Of a stretch of DNA of 64,000 bases, positions 18,578-19,264 are shown piece after piece. The stretch is from Nitrospirota bacterium (lineage in GTDB: Bacteria > Nitrospirota > Thermodesulfovibrionia > Thermodesulfovibrionales > JdFR-85), in contig JAYWMQ010000007.1 of NCBI GenBank assembly GCA_035873375.1, forward strand, positions 1-64,000, in the 5' to 3' direction. The number at the start of each line of letters is the position of its first letter. The first letter of the stretch is position 1. Under the pieces are notes generated by a model. That model had not been told where the DNA came from. It did no database searches and was given only the letters and a program-made list of their open reading frames with translations. Position numbers and translations under genes: made by a program.

Positions 18578-19264
18578 CTACTTACCTTTTACATATGTTA
18601 CAAGAGACCTTATCTGAGACTCGGTCAGTGGACCACCAGCCTTCCAGGAAAATCCAGGCATCATTGTATCAGGAACCCCTTTTTCAATAGCTGCCAAAAG
18701 CCTCTTCTCCGGTAATTTCTTGAGTAAAGCAAGTGATGGAGCACTCTTACCTCGCATATGACACATTATACAGTCTGCCCTGAAAAGGTTTGCACCCAGT
18801 TGCCCTCTTCCTCTGTCAACATGGCACTTTCTGCAGGGAGAACGGAATATCTCCTTTATATCAAGGTTCTTTCCGTGAAAAGAGTCGATCACCTTTGCCT
18901 TCAGATTGAGTATAACAAGTGGCTTTACGGGATCATTCGTCCTGACCTGTACGGTCCTGGATATAAACCCCTTTTTCCTGTCAGTCCTTATGGTTACCTT
19001 TATCTCTCCCTGTTCACCAGGAGCGAGGCGGTCTGAACTGACCACCGTTGCAGTACACCCTCACGACGCTGTTACTTTCTCTATTACCAGTATATCCGTC
19101 CCGTCATTACTAAAGACAAAGGCATGCTCAAGAAGATCGCCCTGGCTCACATCTCCAAAGTCAAAGGTCTTGTCCTCAAACAATATGGAAGGCTCGGCAA
19201 AAACGCCCTGAACTGCTGAAAGCAAAGGGAAAAAAAGGATCAGGGAAACAAGAAAATATTTCAT
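18578..19264 (-). CDS. DUF1573-diheme cytochrome c protein with in-frame TGA (candidate selenocysteine)
   Basis: A single 229-codon frame is interrupted by TGA at 19061-19063 (codon 68). Residues 1-23 are a signal peptide. Residues about 28-115 form a DUF1573 domain, and the C-terminus carries two CxxCH heme motifs (CRKCH at 144-148, CIMCH at 165-169) and a possible axial Met near 201. DUF1573 proteins usually read SCGCT; here it is TAS-TGA-GCT, so the stop replaces the first Cys. The frame continues without shift into family-typical LAPGEQGEIKVTI. A hairpin like a bacterial SECIS starts 14 bases after the TGA. The second half has only an internal GTG without a ribosome site. Selenocysteine insertion is favoured; a nonsense mutation or a sequence error is the alternative. 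Confidence 0.7.
19027..19046 (-). promoter_or_regulatory. bSECIS-like hairpin downstream of the in-frame TGA
   Basis: On the minus strand GGTGGTC, loop AGTTCA, GACCGCC form a 7-bp stem (one G-U pair). The loop has G in its second position followed by U, like bacterial SECIS apical loops. That G is 22 bases after the TGA, inside the usual 16-37 base window. Confidence 0.55.

Follow-up and report, generated by a model that had tools for sequence, protein, structure and literature searches.

Results

The gene occupies positions 18578..19264 on the minus strand of the window, by which we mean the whole stretch of 64,000 nucleotides that was analyzed. It ends in a TAG stop codon (18578-18580) and, with a single TGA read through, would encode a DUF1573-diheme cytochrome c selenoprotein of 228 amino acids, including a selenocysteine (Sec) at residue 68. 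A plus-strand reading of 18578-19264 was rejected, as no coding frame exists there. The protein is 98% identical over 228 residues to a homologue from "Bacterium BMS3Bbin07," and its other nearest named relatives are from Nitrospirota MAGs.

All features of the gene are on the minus strand. Residues 1-23 (19196..19264; MKYFLVSLILFFPLLSAVQGVFA) form a probable signal peptide, called by eye and from a predicted helix at residues 2-19. Then comes a DUF1573 domain (residues 28-125; 18890..19183), predicted to fold as an Ig/PapD-like beta sandwich, and a cytochrome c domain; profile searches of the window protein gave 84.2 bits for PF07610 (cut-off, 26.1) and 43.7 bits for PF13442 (cut-off, 27), respectively. 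The orientation of the domains in the predicted structure is uncertain (pTM, 0.58). The best structural match of its DUF1573 domain was PDB 2qsv, a Porphyromonas gingivalis protein of unknown function, and it also matched PapD-like domains of HYDIN as well as CEP192 and the accessory domain of VesB. While 2qsv shares the DUF1573-type Ig domain, it differs in being a 220-residue protein in which the match is confined to this domain, with no cytochrome part matched.

The TGA (19061..19063) stands in the context S-U-G-C-T and would specify Sec68 of a U-G-C motif. The candidate resolving Cys of this motif, Cys70 (19055..19057), is invariant in alignment A1. Two heme c motifs follow, CRKCH (residues 144-148; 18821..18835) and CIMCH (residues 165-169; 18758..18772), and in both the Cys and His residues (C144, C147, and H148; C165, C168, and H169) are invariant in A1. 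The same holds for a Met-Pro-Gly sequence (residues 202-204; 18653..18661), the Met of which is a candidate axial ligand of the cytochrome c domain by analogy with cytochrome c families. With two invariant CxxCH motifs and this invariant MPG, the protein has the features of a diheme c-type cytochrome.

A homologue is present in 102 of 200 relatives. Among the 49 full-length DUF1573-cytochrome proteins collected, the UGA column holds TGA in 40 and TGC or TGT in 9. The 40 TGA-bearing genes come from 37 related genomes and all have the same architecture; the 9 Cys forms belong to Nitrospirota relatives. Cys also occupies this column in 35 fused homologues, mostly from Melainabacteria-type MAGs, and in six from Desulfobacterota, and the in-frame UGA is thus aligned with Cys of homologues that include other phyla. 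These Melainabacteria-type and Desulfobacterota cytochromes share both domains, the two CxxCH motifs, and a CGC at the same column with the window protein but carry Cys instead of Sec and need no hairpin. When the UGA column was masked for tree building, 3 changes sufficed to explain the distribution of Sec and Cys on the tree, compared with approximately 23 for shuffled labels. Downstream of the UGA, dN/dS against four congeners is 0.07 to 0.21, indicating purifying selection on the cytochrome part.

A bSECIS hairpin lies downstream of the UGA, inside the coding sequence (19027..19046). It consists of a 7-bp stem (19040-19046 paired with 19027-19033) and the loop AGUUCA (19034-19039), with the conserved G at 19038; 22 bases lie between this G and the UGA. 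The published bSECIS model, as described in PMC13188914, allows a loop of 3 to 9 nt and a stem of 4 to 16 bp, with a minimum free energy (MFE) of at most -7.5, a G at loop position 1 or 2, and a spacing of 16 to 37 nt. The window hairpin agrees with it throughout (loop of 6 nt, stem of 7 bp, G in second position, spacing of 21 nt, MFE of -12.6 kcal/mol), and none of 200 shuffles was as stable. Synonymous-codon shuffles of the window gene matched the hairpin with a P value of 0.010. When the whole 41-nt stretch after the UGA was folded, the result was unremarkable compared with shuffles (z, -1.2), and an Rfam scan of the window at gathering thresholds gave no match. The weight of the evidence is with the hairpin alone and with the comparative data, not with the fold of the 41 nt.

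The AGUU loop is found at the same position in all 40 fused UGA genes. In 38 distinct sequences, 94.4% of the stem cells are paired and both partners have changed in six of the seven stem pairs, although five fused genes (L043, L068, L070, L071, and L087) have a stem mismatch. Covariation is 0.486, compared with 0.247 for shuffled sequences, of which 0 of 500 reached 0.486, and at most 0.218 for slid structures. Since the covariation is far above both controls and the synonymous shuffles gave P = 0.010, the hairpin goes beyond chance. Across 86 sequences, the codons flanking the loop are mostly reverse complements of each other, namely, GCT/AGC (Ala/Ser; 30 sequences), GTC/GAC (Val/Asp; 18 sequences), and GCC/GGC (Ala/Gly; 12 sequences). 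These residue pairs track the stem and make a clear case of an RNA element driving covariation between protein residues. The loop motif occupies the expected position at 84 of 86 UGC-type Sec-UGAs, compared with only 2 of the 42 UGAs classed as non-Sec. The latter are nearly all terminal stops, but one of them, the second UGA of G008:C267, is a Sec site filed there in error, and its own hairpin is located three bases further on. The hairpin is absent from all 9 Cys relatives. The original prediction had pointed to a frame intact from signal peptide to cytochrome c except for one TGA, to the position of this TGA at the first Cys of an SCGCT motif, and to a 7-bp hairpin with the loop AGUUCA and a G 22 bases after the UGA; each of these observations is confirmed, and we add the strand, which it had not given.

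The genome (2.67 Mb, 99% complete) contains selA, selB, selC, and selD. The tRNA-Sec scored 73.5 bits and is likewise called as tRNA-SeC by ARAGORN, and profile searches found selB (377.7 bits), selA (598 bits), and selD (330 bits). The selD gene (L248, G000:C2) is itself a selenoprotein gene with an in-frame TGA in the sequence AAGUAGKLGP, which is further evidence that this genome translates UGA as Sec. A global reassignment of UGA was rejected, as TGA is the ordinary stop of 13 of the 39 genes in the window.

Among the 200 relatives, selA is above the cut-off in 175 and selB in 183. This is near saturation for the order, and the presence of the machinery consequently says little there as a test of co-occurrence. 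The 24 genomes with Cys forms of DUF1573 proteins are evenly divided, with selA above the cut-off in 12 and not in the other 12. No selA match was found in 5 of the 88 genomes that bear a Sec-type UGA, all five being drafts; selB is strong in four of these, and G046 lacks both genes.

Discussion

The comparative data make it almost certain that UGA68 is decoded as Sec and that the product combines a DUF1573 domain with a two-heme cytochrome c domain. Decoding most probably follows the usual bacterial pathway, in which tRNA-Sec and SelB act on the codon as directed by the bSECIS hairpin within the coding sequence. Under the default genetic code the TGA would be a true stop, as it is for a third of the genes in the window, or it could be an assembly error, with the downstream cytochrome being a gene of its own or a pseudogene in decay. 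This is highly improbable and is largely contradicted by the comparison of homologues: the TGA is common to 40 of them from 37 genomes, the part after it evolves under constraint (dN/dS, 0.07 to 0.21), the covarying hairpin is missing at true stops, and Cys takes the place of the UGA elsewhere. When Sec is not considered, such genes show up as a truncated protein of 67 residues and a downstream fragment.

UGC-type DUF1573 selenoproteins are known since 2007-2008 as "OS_HP2," a name that reportedly points to a 2007 study of Olavius symbionts. A Sec-containing DUF1573 (pfam07610) protein with the motif UxC was tabulated in 2008 as OS_HP2 (PMC2398784), and a "DUF1573 domain-containing protein, UGC" is among the selenoproteins of PMC9312934 and PMC13188914. 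NCBIfam has the model NF041425, "OS_HP2 family (seleno)protein," with which the DUF1573 domain of the window protein aligns over model positions 2 to 97 of 98 (E value, 2e-22). Like this family, the window protein carries Sec in the U-G-C motif of a DUF1573 domain, but it differs by the added diheme cytochrome c domain, and its score (79.3 bits) is below the curated cut-off of 100. In the literature searched, outside which most subscription papers lie, we found no description of a cytochrome fusion of DUF1573, and the fusion appears to be a new architecture within a known selenoprotein family. Other bacterial selenoproteins that are c-type cytochromes, ExtKL (NF040886) and an octaheme cytochrome of the tetrathionate reductase family (TIGR04315), are listed in PMC13188914. 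They differ, as judged by their descriptions, in being multiheme or octaheme, and no DUF1573 or UGC is given for them in that paper.

The computational checks named in the original prediction thus came out in its favor: all four components of the Sec machinery are encoded, UGA alternates with Cys at the column (40 TGA, with Cys in 9 Nitrospirota, in Melainabacteria-type, and in Desulfobacterota proteins), and the hairpin both fits the bSECIS model and covaries. Of its "candidate new selenoprotein," the selenoprotein is strongly supported and the newness is not, given OS_HP2 and NF041425. Likewise, its remark that Sec had not been described for DUF1573 is contradicted by the entries in PMC2398784, PMC9312934, and PMC13188914 and by NF041425.

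DUF1573 is a domain of unknown function, and the occurrence of Sec in its CGC motif together with the fusion to hemes argues for a motif that is redox active or metal binding. In the model that we favor, the product would be secreted and consist of a two-heme c-type cytochrome joined to a periplasmic Ig-like DUF1573 domain, which carries the Sec-Gly-Cys pair. The pair would cycle between a selenenylsulfide and the selenol/thiol form, most likely passing electrons to or from the hemes, and the overall role would be that of a periplasmic oxidoreductase between a thiol (or sulfur compound) and a cytochrome. For heme attachment, redox cycling of the pair, the direction of electron flow, and the substrate, we put the chance of this model at even or somewhat lower. 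More tentatively, a selenenylsulfide/dithiol center and two c-type hemes within one small periplasmic polypeptide might constitute a direct selenol-to-heme electron relay, which would make the protein a thiol:cytochrome c oxidoreductase built on an Ig-like scaffold. If true, this would be the first defined function for DUF1573. Being small and spectroscopically visible, the protein could serve as a test bed for the role of the DUF1573 motif.

The main rival to this redox reading is that the Sec-Gly-Cys sequence serves as a ligand site for a metal or for heme iron, for instance in copper binding or delivery or as a selenolate ligand of heme, rather than as a redox-active selenenylsulfide. We consider this rather unlikely. 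Thiol oxidoreductases also use U-G-C and U-x-x-C as redox motifs, and the invariant columns of A1 around the UGC motif contained no further His or Met; both points speak against a ligand role. Conversely, such a role would fit the fusion of Sec-DUF1573 domains from the same order to SCO1/SenC, whose family is linked to copper handling, the presence of NosD/NosY-like genes (assigned by eye) next to the same Sec-DUF1573 genes, and the remark in a review that Sec may be a metal ligand in several selenoproteins (PMC13188914). It is also conceivable, if doubtful, that the protein is a peroxidase or reductase for a small substrate, in which the selenol acts as the catalytic nucleophile and the hemes do no more than deliver electrons. 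That no redox enzyme is among the structural matches of DUF1573 (2qsv, HYDIN, CEP192, and the VesB accessory domain) argues against such an enzyme, even though Sec is frequently found at catalytic positions and c-type cytochrome domains frequently supply electrons to a catalytic domain to which they are fused.

The gene neighborhood is not decisive for a thiol:cytochrome oxidoreductase or for the other roles. The gene is adjoined by dksA in its own family and elsewhere by uvrA, ubiA/ubiX, or an isoaspartate-methyltransferase-like gene, and the neighbors examined (dksA, a TPR protein, ubiA/ubiX, and uvrA) name no substrate. In several genomes, the neighbors of Cys-type DUF1573-diheme paralogues (L080 and L082-L086) encode a secreted protein resembling rhodanese and a chemotaxis-receptor-like protein.

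The relatives encode further Sec-DUF1573 proteins. Six apparent two-Sec proteins of approximately 470 to 490 amino acids (L143:3512-4981, L128:4475-5893, L145:3619-5058 on the plus strand, and equivalents in L135, L123, and L124) have a carboxypeptidase-regulatory-like domain at the N terminus and a tandem pair of DUF1573 domains, both of which contain an in-frame UGA and an AGUUC hairpin of their own. Their motifs, LIPAU-R-x-C followed by [PS]SU-[KR]-[KR]-[AS], are of the UxxC instead of the UGC type, and two of the proteins score approximately 141 bits against NF041425. In the review, however, the DUF1573 family is given with one Sec and UGC (PMC13188914). In L125:4699-5601 (minus strand), and likewise in L127 and L138, a gene joins a SCO1/SenC-like domain to a DUF1573 domain whose Sec stands in U-[KR]-A-C, and a bSECIS-like hairpin is present. 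Judged by eye, the recurrent neighbors of the UxxC genes (L123, L124, L128, L135, and L143-L147) are an ABC ATPase and permease, a NosD-like protein whose membrane part is of the polyferredoxin type, transglutaminase-like and thioredoxin-like proteins, and an oxidase-like membrane protein; this neighborhood may be a cluster for the maturation of copper or respiratory enzymes. Finally, in the single-domain Sec-DUF1573 proteins of L108, L120, L130, and L132, the Cys of the UGC motif is replaced (U-G-Y, U-G-A, U-G-G, and U-G-V) and the hairpin is kept in some, which reflects either a Sec that works without a partner Cys or gene decay.
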